Positions 37,167 to 56,587 of a stretch of DNA of 64,000 bases are shown in pieces. Under the pieces are notes generated by a model. The model saw only the letters and a program-made list of their open reading frames with translations. It had not been told where the DNA came from and made no database searches. The translations under genes and the position numbers were made by a program. How positions within the stretch are numbered: the stretch's first letter is position 1; each line of letters begins with the position of its first letter. Source of the DNA: Acidobacteria bacterium 13_1_20CM_3_53_8 (GTDB lineage: Bacteria > Acidobacteriota > Blastocatellia > Pyrinomonadales > Pyrinomonadaceae); the NCBI GenBank assembly GCA_001920415.1, contig MNJR01000026.1, positions 62,001 to 126,000 on the forward strand. The letters are read 5' to 3'.

Positions 37167-39815
37167 TTAAAACCTTGTAGCGCTCCAGGTGAATGGCCGA
37201 CCCTGAACCACTCCAGTGCCCTCTATGTGATTGCCTTGTATCGTGCCCTCCCGCGTGTAGTTGTTTATGTCTATGTGTATGCGGTTGCCGCTCTGCGTCC
37301 ATGTGCCGTGATAGACCGTTCCGTCCTGGCCTATCATGGTCAGGCTACCGCGAGGCAGAAACCTGTATGTGCGCACAAGGTTGTCATCGTAGTCTGGGCC
37401 GCGCCAACGGGTTCCGACGAGCCTTGGGGCTGAGACGACCCTTTCGGCGCTCCATGTGAATGGCCGACCCTGCACCACGCCTGTGCCGTCCAAGTGATTG
37501 CCCTGGATTGTGGCATCGCGTGTGTAGTCGTTGATGTCTATGTGTATACGATTGCCTCTCTGCCACCACGTTCCGTGATAGACGGTGCCGTCCTGTCCGG
37601 TCATGCGTAGGTTACCGCCCGATAGGAATGTGCCAACGATTCTGCCAGCCTGCGCTGCCATGTACAGGTTACCGACCGATAGTAACTCGGACGTTCCAGT
37701 CGAGTTGCCGTCGCTATCCGGGACGCGCCAGACTGCATCAATGATGCTGCCAGTTTGCTCGTTGCGAGCCTGCCCGCCTCCGCCTCCGCCGCCGATTCTG
37801 GTAGCGCGCCAAGTGAAGGGACGACCCTGAACCAATCCAGTGCCGTCAATCACATCACCGTTGATTACGCCTTCACGAGTGTAGCCGTTTATGTCTATGT
37901 GCAGAGTATTACCATTCTGCGACCAGGTTCCGTTGTAGACAGTTCCATCCTGGCCTATCATGCGCAAGGCTCCGCCGGAATGGAATTCGTATGTGCGCAC
38001 AAGATTGTCGTCGAAGTCTGGGCCGCGCCAACGGGTTCCGACGAGGCTGGAAGCCGAGGTAGACCCTGTGCCGCTTCCCGATCCGATTCTTTCGGCGCTC
38101 CAGGTGAATGGCCGACCCTGCACCACACCTGTGCCGTCTAGGTGATTACCCTGTATCGTAGCCTCGCGCGTGTAGCCGTTGATGTCTATGTGTATGCGGT
38201 TGCCGCTCTGCGACCACGTTCCGTTGTAGACGGTGCCGTCCTGCCCCGTCATGCGAAGGTTACCGCCGGAATGGAACTCGAATGTGCGCACAAGGTTGTC
38301 ATCATAGTCTGGGCCGCGCCATGTAGTGCCGACTACGCTGCCAGCCTGACTGACGCCACCACCCCCGCCACTTCCGATTCTGGTAACACGCCATGTGAAT
38401 GGACGACCTTGAACGACTCCAGTGCCATCAATCACATCGCCGTTGATTACACCGTCACGAGTGTAACCGTTTATGTCTATGTGAAAGCGGTTGCCTGTTT
38501 GCGTCCACGTGCCGTGATAAACGGTTCCGTCCTGGCCTGTCATCTGAAGATCGCCGCCAGGGTTGAAGTCGTAGGTTCTCGTAAGATTGTCGTCAAAATC
38601 AGGCCCGCGCCACTTCGTGCCCAGAAGGCTGCCGTACTGGCCTGAGCCTGTGCCAGTACCAATGCCGCCGCCAACGCCAACGCCGCTTGCTCTGCCCACA
38701 TAGTCAGCATCCCACGAGAAGGGGCGGCCACTAACAAATCCGCTCCCCTTGATGTGACGACCTACGATCATCCCTTCCCGCGTGTAGTCATTAATATCTA
38801 TGTGGAAGAGATTCCCGCTCTGTCGCCACCGACCGTGATAGACTGTCCCGTCCTGACCAGTCATCTTCAGGTCTCCGCCTGATAGAAACTCAAACGTTCT
38901 GGTCAGATTGTCGTCATGATCAGGCCCTCGCCACGATGTGCCTTCCAGATTCTCCGCCGTGCTGCGATTCACCGAATCCGTGATCTTATTGGCTGTCCAT
39001 GTGTATTGATCGCTTCCAGCGCCACTCTGTCCCGTGCCTCCCATCTGCGAGCCTGAGACTGCGCCTTGCTCACGAGCGCCTGCATCAAACATCATGGTTA
39101 CGGTCGCGCCCTGCTGAGACCAACGGGAGTTTGTTATCACCTGCCCGCTCCTGGTATCCGTTGCTCTGAGTTGTCCTCCGGGCAAGAATTCATAGACGTA
39201 GCCATGATCGTTGGAATCACGCCAGTCCCAGGTCGTGCCCTCTACGCTTGCGGCGACCGCTCCACCTGTACCTCCTCCAGGGCTTGATATTCTGGTAGCA
39301 CGCCATGTGAACGGCCTACCCTGCACCACGCCTGTGCCGTTAATGACATTGCCTACTACTGTGCCTTCGCGCGTGTAGTCGTTGATGTCAATGTGGAAGC
39401 GGTTCGCTCCCGTCATTGACCATGTGCCGTAATAGACTGTTCCGTCCTGGCCTGTCATCTTCAAATTCCCGCCGGGCAGGAATTCAAATGTTCTAGTCAG
39501 ATTGTCATCGAAATCAGGCCCGCGCCATGCTGTCCCTATCAGGTTCACTGAACCCGCACTTGGCGTCACCACTATTGGCGGCGGTCGCCGTATGCGCACA
39601 TGGTTTCCGGTTGTGATAGTTGGCTTCTGGCCGCTCTCTCGATTTGGCTTGGCCTCCGGGCCTGTCTGAGTGGCCGCCCTAACCGCCGCGCCGGATTTCC
39701 CAGACGAGGAGGCAAAAGAGGGTAGGGAGAATGCGAGCACGGCTGCCAATACCAGCAGCAGGCCTAGAGCCGTGCGTAGCGCTGCGTTTGTTTGTTGGGA
39801 ACTGTTCTGATTCAT
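37167..39815 (-). CDS. Secreted protein with eight ~85-residue repeats
   Basis: 882 residues from the ATG at 39815 (GGAGAGG 5 nt upstream). A signal peptide (about 12-45, LGLLLVLAAVLAFSLPSFAS) and a linker precede eight repeats of ~85 residues. The consensus is W-R-G-P-D-x-D-D-N-L-x-R-T, then MTGQDGTVY, HIDIN, YTRE and GTGVVQGRPFTW. Repeat 2 is strongly diverged and repeat 7 is a partial, shuffled copy. The DNA of repeats 4-6 and 8 is nearly identical in places. Each repeat looks like an all-beta small domain, but no known family is evident. It is probably an exported, perhaps surface, protein; repeat number may vary between strains. Confidence 0.82.
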   Translation of the reverse strand: MNQNSSQQTNAALRTALGLLLVLAAVLAFSLPSFASSSGKSGAAVRAATQTGPEAKPNRESGQKPTITTGNHVRIRRPPPIVVTPSAGSVNLIGTAWRGPDFDDNLTRTFEFLPGGNLKMTGQDGTVYYGTWSMTGANRFHIDINDYTREGTVVGNVINGTGVVQGRPFTWRATRISSPGGGTGGAVAASVEGTTWDWRDSNDHGYVYEFLPGGQLRATDTRSGQVITNSRWSQQGATVTMMFDAGAREQGAVSGSQMGGTGQSGAGSDQYTWTANKITDSVNRSTAENLEGTSWRGPDHDDNLTRTFEFLSGGDLKMTGQDGTVYHGRWRQSGNLFHIDINDYTREGMIVGRHIKGSGFVSGRPFSWDADYVGRASGVGVGGGIGTGTGSGQYGSLLGTKWRGPDFDDNLTRTYDFNPGGDLQMTGQDGTVYHGTWTQTGNRFHIDINGYTRDGVINGDVIDGTGVVQGRPFTWRVTRIGSGGGGGVSQAGSVVGTTWRGPDYDDNLVRTFEFHSGGNLRMTGQDGTVYNGTWSQSGNRIHIDINGYTREATIQGNHLDGTGVVQGRPFTWSAERIGSGSGTGSTSASSLVGTRWRGPDFDDNLVRTYEFHSGGALRMIGQDGTVYNGTWSQNGNTLHIDINGYTREGVINGDVIDGTGLVQGRPFTWRATRIGGGGGGGQARNEQTGSIIDAVWRVPDSDGNSTGTSELLSVGNLYMAAQAGRIVGTFLSGGNLRMTGQDGTVYHGTWWQRGNRIHIDINDYTRDATIQGNHLDGTGVVQGRPFTWSAERVVSAPRLVGTRWRGPDYDDNLVRTYRFLPRGSLTMIGQDGTVYHGTWTQSGNRIHIDINNYTREGTIQGNHIEGTGVVQGRPFTWSATRF
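37175..39554 (-). repeat. Tandem coding repeats within the secreted protein
   Basis: Eight units of roughly 250-310 bp, varying in spacers (Gly-rich). Blocks such as GGCCGACCCTGCACCAC recur almost unchanged. This makes the locus prone to unequal recombination and to assembly collapse. Confidence 0.8.
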
Positions 39816-39904
39816 TGAAACCTCTCCAAAGTGCCGCTCATCAAGCGGCAAGTTAATTGAGTCTGTAGTGTAATTTACTTAGGTGAATCATATGGACGAT
39901 GGCG

Positions 39905-49859: not shown

Positions 49860-50390
49860 ATGTCTCGAAAACCTAAACAGAAAGCTCACATCGAATTCAC
49901 ATTGAACGGCGAAACTGCGGAAGTCGCCTTCGCGCCTCATAAAACTCTTCTGGAAGTTTTAAGAGAAGATTTGAATCTCACGGGCACAAAGCACGGCTGC
50001 GAGTTGGGCGAGTGCGGCACGTGCACTGTGCTTGTTGACCGAAAACCTATTCTCTCTTGCCTGATGCTTGGCCTTGATGTAGAGGGGCGCGAGGTCACAA
50101 CCGTTGAAGGCATGAATGAGGGCGCGCAGCTTCACCCGCTGCAAGAGACTTTCGCAGACACTGGCGCTGCTCAGTGTGGCTACTGCACGCCCGGCTTTCT
50201 ATTGGTTGCGAAAGAGCTCCTCACAAAAAATCCAAACCCTACGCGCGAAGAGATTAAAGAAGCGTTGAGCGGAAATTTGTGCCGATGCACGGGCTACATA
50301 AAGATTTACGAGGCGGTCGAGTTGGCTGCGGCGAAGATGCGCGGCGAAAGTGTGGAACTGCCGAAAGAAAGCGTTTATGGATATGAGTAA
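49860..50390 (+). CDS. 2Fe-2S subunit of a molybdenum hydroxylase
   Basis: 176 residues. An N-terminal plant-type ferredoxin domain carries GCELGECGTCTVLVD and the following Cys in LSCLM. A C-terminal [2Fe-2S]-binding helical domain carries QCGYCTPGFLL and GNLCRCTGY. This is the small subunit of the xanthine oxidase family, which passes electrons from the Mo centre to FAD. Together with the subunits at 50474 and 54920 it forms a 4-hydroxybenzoyl-CoA reductase-like enzyme. It lacks a ribosome-binding site. Confidence 0.95.
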   Translation: MSRKPKQKAHIEFTLNGETAEVAFAPHKTLLEVLREDLNLTGTKHGCELGECGTCTVLVDRKPILSCLMLGLDVEGREVTTVEGMNEGAQLHPLQETFADTGAAQCGYCTPGFLLVAKELLTKNPNPTREEIKEALSGNLCRCTGYIKIYEAVELAAAKMRGESVELPKESVYGYE

Positions 50391-50473: not shown

Positions 50474-52933
50474 ATGAGCAAGAACGAAAAAGATAAGAAT
50501 GAACAGCCTTTGAAAGTCGTAGGCAAACCGTTTCGCAAAGTTGATGCTCGCGCGAAATGCACAGGGCAGACGAAGTTTGCAGACGACATCGCTTTGCCTC
50601 GTATGCTTTACTGCAAAATCCTGCGCTCGCCCGAACCGCACGCGCTCATCAAAACGATTGACGTTTCAAGAGCATTAAAACTTCCGGGCGTTCACGCAAT
50701 CATCACTGGCCGTGACCTGCCCATCCCTTACGGCATTCTTCCTGTGAGCCAGGACGAGCACGCCATCTGCATTGACAAGGTTCGATTCATAGGCGACCCC
50801 GTCGCAGCCGTCGCAGCCGTTGATGAAGACACGGCTTTCGACGCGATGAACTTGATTGAAGTCGAATACGAAAAATTGCAGACCGTCACATCAATCGAGG
50901 AAGGCTTGATGGTGGACGAGCCGCGCATACACGATTATGGCGAGCGCGGCAACATTCACAAGTTGGTCTCGCTCGAATTCGGCGACATGGACGAAGGGTT
51001 TGCCGAAGCGGATTTGATACGCGAAGACATTCTGTTCTACGAAGGCAACACGCACCTGCCTATGGAGCAGCACGCGGCTCTAGCTTATTTCGATACCGAT
51101 AACAAATTGACTCTATGGAGTTCCACGCAGACGCCGCACTATGTTCATCGCGCACTCACTAAAACGTTAGAAATTCCCGCAGCGCACATTCGCGTCATAG
51201 CCACTCCGAACGGCGGCGGTTTTGGGGGAAAGAGCGATCCTTTCAACCACGAGATTATTGTCAGCAAGCTCTCTATGATTACGGGACGCCCCGTAAAAGC
51301 AACGCTCACGCGCGAAGAAGTTTTTTACTGCCATCGCGGTCGTCATCCGGTTTTGATGAAAGTCAGAACGGGCGTGAAACGAGACGGCGCGATAACGGCT
51401 ATGGATTTTCAGTCGTTTCTGGACGGCGGCGCTTATGGTTCATACGGCGTCGCTTCGACCTTCTACACGGGCGCGCTACAAACCGTGACGTATGAAGTCC
51501 CGCGCTACAAGTTTCGCGGCGCTCGCGTTTTCACGAACAAGCCGCCGTGCGGGCCAAAGCGCGGTCACGGCACGCCGCAGCCTCGCTATGCTCTGGAAGT
51601 TCATCTGGATAAAATTGCTGAAGAGCTAAAACTTGATCCTGCCGAGATTCGTCTGAACCACCTTGTCAAACCTTTTTCCGTGACAGCCAACTACCTGCGC
51701 ATAGGCAGCATGGGTTTAGGCCGTTGCATTGAAAAAGTTGTAGAAGGCTCTGACTGGAAAGATAAATTTTCAGGTTGGGACAAAGAAAATAGAAAACTTC
51801 CTTTCGGCAAGGGCGTTGGGCTGGCGTGTAGCTCTTACATTTGCGGCGCAGGTCTTCCCATCTACTGGAACAACATGCCGCACAGTGGCGTTCAGCTTCG
51901 TCTTGATCGTCAGGGCGGCGTCTGCGTCCAGTGCGGCTCAATAGACATAGGTCAGGGTTCAGATTCCGTACTCGCCTACATCGTTGCTGAAGTTCTAGGC
52001 ATTGACCCGTTCGACATTCGCGTTCTAACAGCCGACACCGACTTGACGCCCGTTGATCTCGGCAGCTATTCGAGCCGCGTCACTTTGATGACAGGAAACG
52101 CAGCACTGCAAGCAGCCGAACGCGCGCGTGAACTGCTGACCATAGCCGTCGCTGAAAAACTGAGCGTGCCCGCCGAGAATCTTTCTTTCGCGGAGCGTCG
52201 CGTTTTCGACGTTGAGAATCCAGAGGTCGGTCTTTCATTCGCTGAAGCTGTCGTGCTCGCAGAATCCAAATTCGGCACAATCGGCACGGTCGGCTCATAC
52301 ACTCCGCCGCGCTCGCCCGGCCATTTCAAGGGCGCAGGCGTTGGCCCATCGCCCGCCTACAGCTATTCGGCTGCGGTCGCGGAAGTTGACGTTGATCCGA
52401 TGACAGGCATAGTCACGGTCGAGCGCGTCTGGATAGCGCACGACATAGGACGCAGTATCAATCCCATGCTAGTCATGGGACAGGTCGAAGGCTCAGTTTA
52501 CATGGGCTTGGGCGAAGCCTTAATGGAAGAGATGGCCTACCGCGCCAATCGAAACGTCGTACACAAATTCCCTTCTCTACTCGAATACAAGAGTCCAACG
52601 ACGCTTGAGATGTGCGACGTTAAGACCTACTTAATCGAAGACGCAGACCCCAACGGCCCGTTCGGCGCTAAGGAAGTCGGTCAGGGGCCGCTCCTTCCCG
52701 TCCCTCCAACCGTAGCCAACGCCGTTTACGACGCCGTAGGCGTCCGCATAGACGAAGTGCCCATCACGCCCGAAAAAGTTCTCTACGCGCTGCGCGAAAA
52801 ATCTAAAGGGCGCGAAGGCCGCTTCGGGCCAAAGTCCATTCCCGAAGTTGATTGGCCGCAGCCGTTGAAAGTTCTTACACCCGAAGAAGGCGGAGACGGC
52901 AGAGAGATGCCGCACGTAGCTGTGCATTCGTGA
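50474..52933 (+). CDS. Molybdopterin subunit of a xanthine oxidase-family enzyme
   Basis: 819 residues. N-terminal aldehyde-oxidase a/b hammerhead region (about 15-125, DIALPRMLYCKILRSPEPHA) and then the Mo-binding domain (about 140-790) with GGGFGGKSDPFNHEI, FLDGGAYGSYG, CGPKRGHGTPQPRYALE and near the C-terminus FGAKEVGQGPLLPVPPTV, whose glutamate is the catalytic base of the family. The cofactor is probably MCD (see the MocA-like gene at 55985). The sequence is closer to 4-hydroxybenzoyl-CoA reductase than to xanthine dehydrogenase, in line with the FAD subunit. The substrate is unknown. The FAD subunit gene is separated by a 2-kb insert. Confidence 0.93.
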   Translation: MSKNEKDKNEQPLKVVGKPFRKVDARAKCTGQTKFADDIALPRMLYCKILRSPEPHALIKTIDVSRALKLPGVHAIITGRDLPIPYGILPVSQDEHAICIDKVRFIGDPVAAVAAVDEDTAFDAMNLIEVEYEKLQTVTSIEEGLMVDEPRIHDYGERGNIHKLVSLEFGDMDEGFAEADLIREDILFYEGNTHLPMEQHAALAYFDTDNKLTLWSSTQTPHYVHRALTKTLEIPAAHIRVIATPNGGGFGGKSDPFNHEIIVSKLSMITGRPVKATLTREEVFYCHRGRHPVLMKVRTGVKRDGAITAMDFQSFLDGGAYGSYGVASTFYTGALQTVTYEVPRYKFRGARVFTNKPPCGPKRGHGTPQPRYALEVHLDKIAEELKLDPAEIRLNHLVKPFSVTANYLRIGSMGLGRCIEKVVEGSDWKDKFSGWDKENRKLPFGKGVGLACSSYICGAGLPIYWNNMPHSGVQLRLDRQGGVCVQCGSIDIGQGSDSVLAYIVAEVLGIDPFDIRVLTADTDLTPVDLGSYSSRVTLMTGNAALQAAERARELLTIAVAEKLSVPAENLSFAERRVFDVENPEVGLSFAEAVVLAESKFGTIGTVGSYTPPRSPGHFKGAGVGPSPAYSYSAAVAEVDVDPMTGIVTVERVWIAHDIGRSINPMLVMGQVEGSVYMGLGEALMEEMAYRANRNVVHKFPSLLEYKSPTTLEMCDVKTYLIEDADPNGPFGAKEVGQGPLLPVPPTVANAVYDAVGVRIDEVPITPEKVLYALREKSKGREGRFGPKSIPEVDWPQPLKVLTPEEGGDGREMPHVAVHS

Positions 52934-52945
52934 AAGGTAAAGAAA

Positions 52946-53272
52946 ATGAGCGAGGATAAAACGACAGAGACACCCGATGCGCGATCTTTTGAAGAGCGGG
53001 TATTTGCTAGATTCGATGCTCTGGATACTCGTCTTGATAGCGTTGAAACGCGGCTTGAGAAACTTGAAGCCAAACAGTATGACACAAAGCCGATTTGGGA
53101 ACGTGCCCTGACAGAGATAGCGGAAATGCGTCAAGAGATGCGTCAACGTTACGAAGATTTCGATGTGCGAATGGATCGCGTTGAAAGCGTAGTCAATGCC
53201 ACACACCCTGAGATGCTGACGCTCCGCGCCGACTTCAAAGAGTTTCGCGGTAATTTCAAAGAGCCTGCGTAA
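52946..53272 (+). CDS. Small coiled-coil protein
   Basis: 108 residues, AAAGGTAAAG before the ATG. It is almost entirely helical and highly charged with a heptad pattern (FARFDALDTRLDSVETRLEK, IAEMRQEMRQRYEDFDVRMD). Similar short coiled-coil proteins are often found in toxin-antitoxin neighbourhoods, but no known family is assigned. It opens a 1.9-kb set of short genes that splits the molybdenum hydroxylase operon. Confidence 0.65.
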   Translation: MSEDKTTETPDARSFEERVFARFDALDTRLDSVETRLEKLEAKQYDTKPIWERALTEIAEMRQEMRQRYEDFDVRMDRVESVVNATHPEMLTLRADFKEFRGNFKEPA

Positions 53273-54000: not shown

Positions 54001-54888
54001 ATGGGCGGAGCATTGCATCTAATTTCGTGGAATATACGTGGTGGCAGCAATCTACAAGACAAAGTAGAAAATATTTTGTCTTGTAATCCAGACTTAATTG
54101 CACTTCAGGAGGTTACACAGGATTCTGCGACTTACATCAAAGAAAATCTAAAGGACTATTTTATTGCAGACACTCTTAACAAAGATTTCTCTGAACTTTC
54201 TTCCTTACAGAAAGGGAAGCTAGGTATTTTGGTTGCTAGTCGCTGGCCGTTTTCTGTGTTACCCCGGTTGGAAAGACCTAACCTCCATAATATCTGGCCT
54301 GATACTCTACTTAAGATTCTTCAAGATATGTTCCGCCCCGAGAGATTTCTTTCGGTAAATATCAAAAGCCCTTGGGGAAATATTGAACTCTACACTGTTC
54401 ATATTCCACCTGCTCGCTCTCACAAGCCATCAAGCAACCCTGGAGGCTGGATTAAGGTTTACATGATTGAGGCTATATACCAAAGATTAGCCAGTAAAGG
54501 CTCGTTTCCAAGAATTCTTTGTGGTGACTTCAACATGCCAAAAGAAGAATTTTCAGATAGACAGTATCTAACTTGGGCCACGTTAACCAAGAATGGTTCT
54601 TTCACTAAGCAACGTGGCTTCGATTCACGGCTTTGGGATAAAGCTGAACGAAAGATTCTCTCTAGGTTATTAGATTTCGATTTGCCTGATATTTACCGCT
54701 TGGTGAATGGTTACGATAGAGTCACCGACTTTAGTTACTATGCAGGTGGGAATGGGCGGCGTTACGACCATATTTTTGCATCTCGTTCACTTCATGCTAC
54801 CAAGTGCGGTTATCTGCATTCATTTCGAGAATCTAAGTTAAGCGATCACTCTCCGATTGAAGTTGTGTTTGAGCCTGATACTTTTTGA
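54001..54888 (+). CDS. Endonuclease/exonuclease/phosphatase-family protein
   Basis: 295 residues with the EEP fold: ISWNIRGGSNLQD (Asn), LIALQEVTQDS (Glu), ILCGDFNMPKEEF (the GDFN motif) and the final RRYDHIFASRS, with SDHSPIEVVF (the SDH motif). All catalytic residues of the family are in place. It may be a DNase, a phosphodiesterase or an inositol-phosphatase. The gene is visibly AT-rich compared with its neighbours and probably acquired. It has no signal peptide, so it is intracellular. It is the last gene of the insert before the FAD subunit. Confidence 0.85.
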   Translation: MGGALHLISWNIRGGSNLQDKVENILSCNPDLIALQEVTQDSATYIKENLKDYFIADTLNKDFSELSSLQKGKLGILVASRWPFSVLPRLERPNLHNIWPDTLLKILQDMFRPERFLSVNIKSPWGNIELYTVHIPPARSHKPSSNPGGWIKVYMIEAIYQRLASKGSFPRILCGDFNMPKEEFSDRQYLTWATLTKNGSFTKQRGFDSRLWDKAERKILSRLLDFDLPDIYRLVNGYDRVTDFSYYAGGNGRRYDHIFASRSLHATKCGYLHSFRESKLSDHSPIEVVFEPDTF

Positions 54889-54919: not shown

Positions 54920-55903
54920 ATGATGAGACTTCCTAAATTCAGCTATCTTGTGCCGCGAGAGATCGCGGACGCGGTACGGATGATGGCTGACGCCGGCCCA
55001 GTGGGGCAGTTTGTCGCGGGCGGCACAGACCTTTATCCGAATATGAAGCGGCGGCAGCAGACGCCTAAGACTGTTATCTCCGTGACGCGGTTGAAGGAGT
55101 TGAATCAAATCGAGGGTGACGGGAAGACGGGTTTGAGAATAGGCGCGTCTGTTTGGTTGACGGATGTTTGCGAGCATCCGGTTATTAATCGTGATTACGC
55201 GTTTGTGGCTCGCGCGGCGCGGCTTATCTCTACGCCTATCTTGCGCAACATGAGCACGATTGGCGGCAACCTTCTGCTTGATACGCGATGCAACTATTAC
55301 GACCAGAATTACGAGTGGCGGCGCGGGATAAATTTCTGTTTGAAGAAGGACGGCGATGTTTGCTGGGTTGCGCCGGGAAGCAAGAAGTGCTGGGCTGTGC
55401 AGTCGTCAGACCTTGTGCCGTTGATGGTTGCAATCGGCGCGCGCGTGAAGTTGGTTTCGACGCTTGGCGAAAGAATGGTTGATGCTGCGAAGCTCTACAA
55501 CGATGACGGCATTGATTATTTGCACAAGAGGCCGGATGAGCTTTTGACAGAAATTCATCTTCCGCCTGTTATGGGCTGGCGCGCTACTTATAAGAAACTT
55601 CGGCGGCGCGGCGCGTTCGATTTTCCTGTGCTGGGCGTGGCGGCGCGTGTGGATTTGGATGAGAGCGGCGCTGTTAAAGATGCGAAGTTGATTCTTGGCG
55701 GCATTGCGCCTGCTCCGGTTGAAGTGAAAGAGGCTGAGAAGGTTTTAGTTGGAAATCCCTTGAATCAAGAGACAATCGAAGCGGCTGCTGAAGCAAGTTA
55801 TATAAAAGCGCGACCGCTCGACAACACGGATTTCGTGATGAACTGGCGAAAGCAGATGGCTAGGCCGTTTGTGGTTCGCGCTCTGGAAGAGTTGAGAGGA
55901 TAG
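54920..55903 (+). CDS. FAD subunit with 4-hydroxybenzoyl-CoA reductase-type 4Fe-4S insert
   Basis: 327 residues. A FAD-binding PCMH-like domain opens with PKFSYLVPREIADAVRMMAD, then FVAGGTDLYPNM and STIGGNLLLDTRC. C124, C140, C148 and C157 have spacings of 16, 8 and 9; from memory these match exactly the four cysteines (122, 138, 146, 155) that hold the extra [4Fe-4S] cluster in the beta subunit of 4-hydroxybenzoyl-CoA reductase. Xanthine dehydrogenase lacks this insert. The enzyme therefore probably works as a reductive dehydroxylase or related aryl-CoA hydroxylase. A CO_deh_flav_C-type C-terminus follows. Confidence 0.92.
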   Translation: MMRLPKFSYLVPREIADAVRMMADAGPVGQFVAGGTDLYPNMKRRQQTPKTVISVTRLKELNQIEGDGKTGLRIGASVWLTDVCEHPVINRDYAFVARAARLISTPILRNMSTIGGNLLLDTRCNYYDQNYEWRRGINFCLKKDGDVCWVAPGSKKCWAVQSSDLVPLMVAIGARVKLVSTLGERMVDAAKLYNDDGIDYLHKRPDELLTEIHLPPVMGWRATYKKLRRRGAFDFPVLGVAARVDLDESGAVKDAKLILGGIAPAPVEVKEAEKVLVGNPLNQETIEAAAEASYIKARPLDNTDFVMNWRKQMARPFVVRALEELRG

Positions 55904-55984: not shown

Positions 55985-56587
55985 GTGATTGCCGCTATTC
56001 TGCTATCCGCCGGGCGCTCCAGTCGCATGGGCGCGTTCAAGCCGTTGCTTCCTTTCGGTGACAAGACCGTAATCGAAACCTGTATTGATAATCTTCTGAG
56101 AGGCGGAGTCGAAACGATTGTAGTTGTCGTGGGGCATCGAGCCGAAGAGATTCATGAAAGGCTAGCTCACCTTCCTGTACGCTTCGCCATCAACGAGGAC
56201 GCGGAGAGCGAGATGGGAGTTTCGATTTCGCGCGGTGCGGAGCAACTGCCAAAAAAAATTGAAAGCATCTTCATAGCGCTTGTAGATCAACCTGCGGTCG
56301 GAGCGGAAGTGATAAAGAAGCTTCTGGAAGAGAAAGAGCTAGGAAGCGCGCGGCTCTTTGTGCCTGTGTACGAGGGGCGCGGCGGCCATCCTGTTCTGCT
56401 CGACGCGAGTCTCCGTGAAGAGTTAAAAAACTTAGACCCGGAGCGCGGCCTGCGCTCGCTCTTTGACGCTCACAGCGAAGAGGTCTTGCGCGTCCCAGTC
56501 TCTTCGCCTTACGTCGCGCGCGACATGGACGAGTGGGAAGATTATCGCGCGCTGCACCGCGAAATTTTCGGAACAGAAGGAAAGTAG
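55985..56587 (+). CDS. MocA-like molybdenum cofactor cytidylyltransferase
   Basis: 200 residues from a GTG at 55985. The N-terminus AAILLSAGRSSRMGAFKPLL is the NTP-transferase signature (LxxGxxxRMGxxK). IVVVVGHRAEEI and the AlDQP-like ALVDQPAVG segment follow, with the C-terminal GRGGHPVLLD. MocA makes the MCD form of the cofactor used by xanthine oxidase-family enzymes, which matches the operon. The start is very close to the family L repeat and lacks a ribosome-binding site. Confidence 0.9.
   Translation: MIAAILLSAGRSSRMGAFKPLLPFGDKTVIETCIDNLLRGGVETIVVVVGHRAEEIHERLAHLPVRFAINEDAESEMGVSISRGAEQLPKKIESIFIALVDQPAVGAEVIKKLLEEKELGSARLFVPVYEGRGGHPVLLDASLREELKNLDPERGLRSLFDAHSEEVLRVPVSSPYVARDMDEWEDYRALHREIFGTEGK

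Follow-up and report, generated by a model that had tools for sequence, protein, structure and literature searches.

A glutamine-bearing branch of the 4-hydroxybenzoyl-CoA reductase lineage in a soil acidobacterium and its association with oxygen-dependent aryl-CoA pathways

Introduction

Does a three-subunit molybdenum enzyme encoded by a soil acidobacterium act on aromatic CoA thioesters in the reductive direction, as 4-hydroxybenzoyl-CoA reductase (HCR) does, and if so, which aromatic pathways would it serve? The question is raised by a 64,000-nucleotide stretch of contig MNJR01000026.1 from Acidobacteria bacterium 13_1_20CM_3_53_8 (family Pyrinomonadaceae), referred to here as the window. 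A reading made from the window's sequence alone had noted that the FAD subunit carries cysteines with the spacing of the extra 4Fe-4S cluster of HCR, and had proposed a reductive role in aromatic metabolism. We have examined this enzyme together with the remainder of its genome (G000; 6.1 Mb, 95.9% complete) and with related loci in other genomes, which are given L-numbers, contigs being given C-numbers.

Organization of the locus

The genes and sites of interest in the window are as follows.

49860..50390, + strand: small subunit (S), 176 aa, two 2Fe-2S clusters (Fer2 PF00111, Fer2_2 PF01799); TIGR03193 176.4 bits, cut-off 257.8
50474..52933, + strand: large molybdopterin subunit (L), 819 aa; TIGR03194 843.1 bits, cut-off 994.55; 1rm6_A 611 bits
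52682..52684, + strand: codon of Gln737, at the position of the xanthine oxidase family catalytic Glu (computed from the ORF start)
52946..53272, + strand: small ORF predicted as coiled coil, lying between the L and M genes, no assigned function
54001..54888, + strand: endonuclease/exonuclease/phosphatase-family gene, which parts M from L and is not an enzyme component
54920..55903, + strand: FAD subunit (M) with 4Fe-4S insert, 327 aa, FAD_binding_5 and CO_deh_flav_C matches; TIGR03195 248.2 bits, cut-off 404.55; 1rm6_B 169 bits
55289..55390, + strand: the four insert cysteines Cys124, Cys140, Cys148 and Cys157 (C-x15-C-x7-C-x8-C)
55985..56587, + strand: MocA-like NTP transferase; TIGR03310 150.8 bits, cut-off 186.45

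The S, L and M genes are usually contiguous in relatives; in locus L111 the order is S-L-M-MocA, and no more than about 20 bases lie between successive genes. The split of L from M in the window thus probably arose secondarily. The coiled-coil ORF is probably not part of the enzyme, because L111 has no such gene and M follows directly after L there. At the position of the 54001-54888 gene, some related genomes (L061, L104, L107) have a BrnT-like toxin gene instead. The MocA-like protein probably makes the molybdopterin cytosine dinucleotide cofactor, and its gene also lies directly 3′ of M in L111 and further Pyrinomonadaceae loci. No aromatic-metabolism genes are present among the enzyme's neighbours in the window itself. 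Elsewhere in the window, an 894-aa protein (37167-39851, − strand) contains many degenerate repeats of the type WRGPDxDDNLxRTFEFxxGGxLxMTGQDGTVYxGTW.

The 4Fe-4S insert of the FAD subunit

The spacing noted from the sequence alone is real. Alignment of the FAD subunit with HcrB of Thauera aromatica (1rm6_B) is free of gaps through the insert, all four cysteines coincide and their spacing is identical. The corresponding codon pattern (TGY-N45-TGY-N21-TGY-N24-TGY) matches only once in the entire window, at 55289-55390, where shuffled sequences give an expectation of 0.19; the pattern is not due to chance. PaoB, the one other relative of known structure in this comparison to carry such an insert, has a different spacing, and the genome's own PaoB-like paralog has C-x9-C-x8-C-x18-C.

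The exact spacing is found in 98 of 104 FAD subunits that adjoin large subunits of the window's branch (called Q-type below). Of the six exceptions, two (L090, L091) are spaced differently; the other four are ORFs that are short, truncated or misassigned. Members of the HcrA clade and the L094 protein also have the exact spacing, and the insert is absent from the next outgroup (L098-L100, L188-L192, L195); its distribution thus follows the clade made up of HcrA, the Q-type branch and L094.

Placement of the large subunit

The nearest solved structure to the large subunit is HcrA (611 bits), with CoxL second (308 bits). Trees were built with PaoC, CoxL, Qor and HcrA, together with Acidobacteriota homologs and the paralogs encoded by the genome itself, and one of them also included bovine xanthine oxidase (XO) and KDH. 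The window's large subunit falls in a Q-type clade (bootstrap/SH-aLRT 100/100) to which L094 is sister (99/96). HcrA and the Q-type branch are joined in one insert-bearing clade (100/99) that lies outside xanthine dehydrogenase (XDH), PaoC, CoxL and Qor. Grouping with xanthine dehydrogenases that carry such an insert, the outcome that would have counted against the sequence-only reading, is not seen, and the placement in the HCR lineage stands. XDH, PaoC and CoxL identities were rejected on the tree and the cysteine spacing.

All three subunits nonetheless score below the NCBIfam equivalog cut-offs for HCR. L097 and L197 of the HcrA clade exceed the large-subunit cut-off of 994.55, whereas Q-type large subunits score 780-843 (780-818 apart from the window's own). 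Membership of the standard HCR family was rejected on these cut-offs and on the catalytic residue discussed below, and HCR is kept as a functional analogy. A plasmid search gave members that were all below 60% identity, the best being about 37%.

Sequence comparison thus indicates that the window encodes a three-subunit Mo/2Fe-2S/FAD enzyme of the HCR lineage with its extra 4Fe-4S site intact. The Q-type branch to which it belongs is large and widespread, and is without a characterised member; no description of it was found in the open-licence full-text literature, which is weak evidence of absence.

A glutamine replaces the catalytic glutamate

Gln737 aligns with Glu726 of HcrA and Glu1261 of bovine XO. 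All 113 readable Q-type rows (the window and 112 relatives), each at least 62% identical, have Gln at this position. The seven rows of that set that are less closely related have Glu, as do all other homologs and references that could be read here. The tyrosine characteristic of the HCR lineage (Tyr331 in the window, Tyr326 in HcrA) is present in 121 of 121 rows. Roughly 50 other positions have a residue that is constant throughout the Q-type branch and differs in members that retain the glutamate (E-type). At one position, 681, the branch has a fixed Glu where HcrA-type members have Gln, and L094 has Glu both there and at the catalytic site.

The equivalent substitution in mouse AOX1 (E1265Q) yields an enzyme inactive in hydroxylation on every substrate assayed (PMC2671166). 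The change from Glu to Gln is expected to cripple base-catalysed hydroxylation; it could hamper the reverse reaction too, because the acid/base role proposed for this residue in the family is closed to Gln.

Aromatic pathways encoded in the genome

The sequence-only reading had looked to benzoyl-CoA pathway and aryl-CoA ligase genes for support. The ligases are present, as benzoate-CoA-ligase-family genes on contigs C62 (above cut-off) and C110, but the benzoyl-CoA pathway bears the expectation out only in part: BoxC and BoxB are both encoded above cut-off on C62, a contig other than the window's, while the anaerobic marker Oah is absent (no TIGR03200 match above cut-off in G000) and the context is oxygen-dependent. 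An anaerobic benzoyl-CoA pathway in this genome was rejected as judged on the Oah marker.

On C62 BoxC and BoxB are followed by enoyl-CoA hydratases (ECH), an SDR, RidA, an acyl-CoA dehydrogenase (ACAD) and a stand-alone flavin monooxygenase (FMO) whose match to the salicylyl-CoA 5-hydroxylase model covers the N-terminal half of that model; FMOs of this type also occur in 2-aminobenzoyl-CoA monooxygenase/reductase. About 4-13 kb further along lie the benzoate-CoA-ligase-family gene and genes for an OYE-type reductase, a kynureninase-like protein (identified by eye, with no NCBIfam match at the threshold used) and a tryptophan 2,3-dioxygenase-like (TDO) protein, the last at 259 bits and under its 390.7 cut-off. 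The genome thus encodes aryl-CoA ligation and oxygen-dependent aryl-CoA metabolism of the box and 2-aminobenzoyl-CoA types.

Two side observations concern these contigs. The FMO and OYE-type reductase, two halves of one fusion in the salicylyl-CoA 5-hydroxylase/oxidoreductase model, are encoded separately on C62 (L181:17625-18749 and L014:3428-4906), close to the genes for RidA, kynureninase and tryptophan dioxygenase. Once the ring has been dearomatised, RidA could hydrolyse the resulting enamine. On C110 a gene that appears by eye to encode an XdhC/CoxI-like Mo-enzyme maturation protein (L015:16960-17775) lies about 6 kb from the second ligase gene.

Co-occurrence with aryl-CoA pathways across genomes

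Associations were computed over 297 Acidobacteriota genomes, 48 with a Q-type enzyme and 249 without, with P values that ignore relatedness. BoxB is present in 28 of the 48 and in 22 of the 249 (odds ratio 14, P 2e-13, relatedness ignored), and BoxB or FMO (the aminobenzoyl/salicylyl-CoA-type monooxygenase) in 37 of 48 against 27 of 249 (odds ratio 28), leaving 11 of the Q-type Acidobacteriota with neither. The association with Oah is far weaker than that with BoxB (9/48 versus 17/249). E-type members are associated with Oah (6/18, odds ratio 6.5) and not with BoxB. Within the window's family, the four Q-type genomes are exactly those with BoxB and FMO, and the 15 without a Q-type enzyme have neither. 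Outside the Acidobacteriota, BoxB is also found in two Eisenbacteria and one Myxococcota genome that carry the Q-type enzyme. It is present in none of the 23 Gemmatimonadota genomes that do so, thirteen of which have the FMO; the idea that the Q-type enzyme always feeds the box pathway was ruled out by these carriers. The Q-type branch thus tracks oxygen-dependent aryl-CoA pathways.

Physical linkage to aryl-CoA genes is seen at 14 of 106 distinct Q-type loci, and BoxB lies within reach at five of the 106 where 0.4 would be expected. Gp2 Acidobacteria provide the most extended arrangement, BoxD-BoxR-BoxC-BoxB-amidohydrolase-(PaaK-like)-TetR-S-L-M, in L167, L173 and L178 and in part in L166; among these four clusters BoxD is usual and the PaaK-like ligase is present in two. 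The order in L122 is BoxC-BoxB-S-L. In the Pyrinomonadaceae loci L101, L104, L107 and L111 the Q-type genes adjoin RidA-ECH-ACAD-FMO, with L111 reading S-L-M-MocA-RidA-ECH-ACAD-FMO and also containing OYE-kynureninase-TDO. L161 has a thiolase, ECH, an MIO-type ammonia-lyase, an acyl-CoA ligase, TetR and S-L-M. Neighbours of the Gemmatimonadota Q-type genes (an M19 peptidase and others) give no functional clue.

The E-type sister L094 adjoins a gene for cyclohexadienoyl-CoA hydratase (above cut-off), with Oah about 4 kb away. A different context is seen at L197:271-10127 (G084 C9; a related locus, L196, is in G121 C9), where a single gene run encodes an HCR accepted by NCBIfam (1041.9 bits) along with a short oxygenase resembling BoxB (37% identity), two enoyl-CoA hydratases, an aldehyde dehydrogenase and an amidohydrolase that shares 52% identity with its counterpart in the gp2 box cluster. 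This is possibly an oxygen-dependent pathway that uses a true HCR, and a simple division into aerobic Q-type and anaerobic E-type enzymes is accordingly only partly true.

Discussion

What, then, does the enzyme do? We tentatively favour, at somewhat less than an even chance, an aryl-CoA molybdoenzyme of the HCR lineage that is most likely reductive and serves aerobic pathways. Low-potential electrons would enter through the 4Fe-4S cluster and reach Mo via FAD and then both 2Fe-2S clusters; at Mo, a thioester-activated ring substituent (hydroxyl, possibly amino) would be removed; the product, benzoyl-CoA or a simpler aryl-CoA, would be handed to the oxygenases of the box and 2-aminobenzoyl-CoA pathways. 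A CoA thioester substrate is suggested by the lineage and by the repeated association with different aryl-CoA modules, and the direction, leaving group and electron donor are likewise predictions from sequence. Two points favour reduction: Unciuleac 2004 (cited in PMC12771579) links HCR's 4Fe-4S insert to inverted electron flow in its title, and the Glu-to-Gln change would be expected to cripple base-catalysed hydroxylation. A reductive enzyme in aerobes is awkward, since HCR is oxygen-sensitive (PMC12771579). The small share of loci with physical linkage to aryl-CoA genes, the carriers that lack BoxB or both markers, the non-aromatic neighbours in the window and the harm that Gln might do to the reverse reaction also weigh against this reading.

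It is unlikely, though it must be weighed, that this is an ordinary 4-hydroxybenzoyl-CoA reductase that has drifted, with Gln doing the job of Glu and the product entering the box pathway. HCR is the nearest structure by a wide margin, the insert and Tyr326 are shared, the genome has benzoate-CoA-ligase-family members and boxBC, and the accepted HCR of L197 also adjoins a BoxB-like gene. However, all three subunits score below the equivalog cut-offs, the large subunits of L097 and L197 pass a cut-off that Q-type large subunits fall short of, the Gln is fixed branch-wide along with the other branch-specific residues, and Oah is absent.

We consider it similarly improbable that the enzyme works oxidatively and hydroxylates an aryl-CoA or an N-heteroaromatic compound (for example in tryptophan/kynurenine breakdown), with another residue as the base. 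The superfamily is mostly oxidative, kynureninase and TDO genes lie nearby in L111, and the branch-fixed Glu681 might substitute; but Glu681 is also present in L094, whose catalytic Glu is kept, and the box clusters of L167, L173, L178 and L122 are without tryptophan genes. The loss of hydroxylation in the AOX1 mutant and the retention of an insert associated with inverted electron flow argue against it as well.

An inactive or repurposed relative, such as a protein for electron transfer or binding whose catalysis went with its Glu, would explain the missing residue but is highly improbable, given a mean column identity of 76% in the large subunit across 14 diverse members, invariant Moco-binding motifs, retained cofactor ligands and the MocA gene adjoining M in the window's relatives. 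The 4Fe-4S cluster of PaoB serves an oxidative enzyme, so the insert alone is no proof of a reductase, but an aldehyde or purine oxidoreductase of the PaoABC or XDH kind, with the insert as an electron-transfer accessory, is very hard to credit and largely refuted by the tree. The PaoB-type spacing, the grouping with PaoC or XDH (the clade differs with full support), neighbouring purine genes and the XDH catalytic Glu are all lacking, and the genome already has a separate XDH on C3 beside allantoinase as well as PaoABC-like loci.

Returning to the reductive aryl-CoA enzyme, comparison with known systems indicates what it may share with them. HcrABC of Thauera aromatica (1rm6/1sb3) has the same three-subunit plan, cysteine spacing and HCR-lineage tyrosine and sits in the same insert-bearing clade, but it has Glu726 where the window has Gln, the window's scores fall below the curated cut-offs, and the Q-type branch is linked to aerobic box/aminobenzoyl-CoA genes and not to the anaerobic benzoyl-CoA pathway. 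Urolithin C dehydroxylase (Ucdh) of Enterocloster bolteae, compared by description alone, is also a reductive phenol dehydroxylase in the xanthine oxidase family. Among characterised enzymes HCR is closest to it (32.7% identical), although its substrate is not a CoA thioester; the hydroxyl on which HCR and Ucdh act lies para to a carbonyl that withdraws electrons (PMC12771579). PaoABC of Escherichia coli (5g5g/5g5h) likewise has an FAD subunit with extra cysteines that bind a 4Fe-4S cluster, but it has its own spacing, belongs to a distant clade, is oxidative and has the catalytic Glu.

Anaerobic Azoarcus evansii has a 2-aminobenzoyl-CoA reductase activity, a reductive deamination (reviewed in PMC4539516), which, likened by activity alone, would link anthraniloyl-CoA to benzoyl-CoA and thus the two pathways with which the Q-type branch is associated. 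A more speculative version of the reductive reading, to which we attach a rather low probability, is that in aerobic soil bacteria the Q-type enzyme reduces aryl-CoA compounds by taking an amino group off the ring (2-aminobenzoyl-CoA to benzoyl-CoA and ammonia) or a hydroxyl group, with the Gln site tuned for a different leaving group. If amino-group removal is true, it would connect the breakdown of tryptophan and anthranilate with the box pathway, and the enzyme would be a xanthine oxidase family member able to function without a catalytic Glu that is conserved elsewhere.

In soil metagenomes, Q-type genes would be apt to be annotated as anaerobic 4-hydroxybenzoyl-CoA reductase, yet the branch tracks oxygen-dependent pathways. 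The fixed loss of a superfamily residue held to be essential offers a natural test of what distinguishes reductive from oxidative members, and the Q-type branch adds a widespread candidate to the very few reductive enzymes of the xanthine oxidase family.
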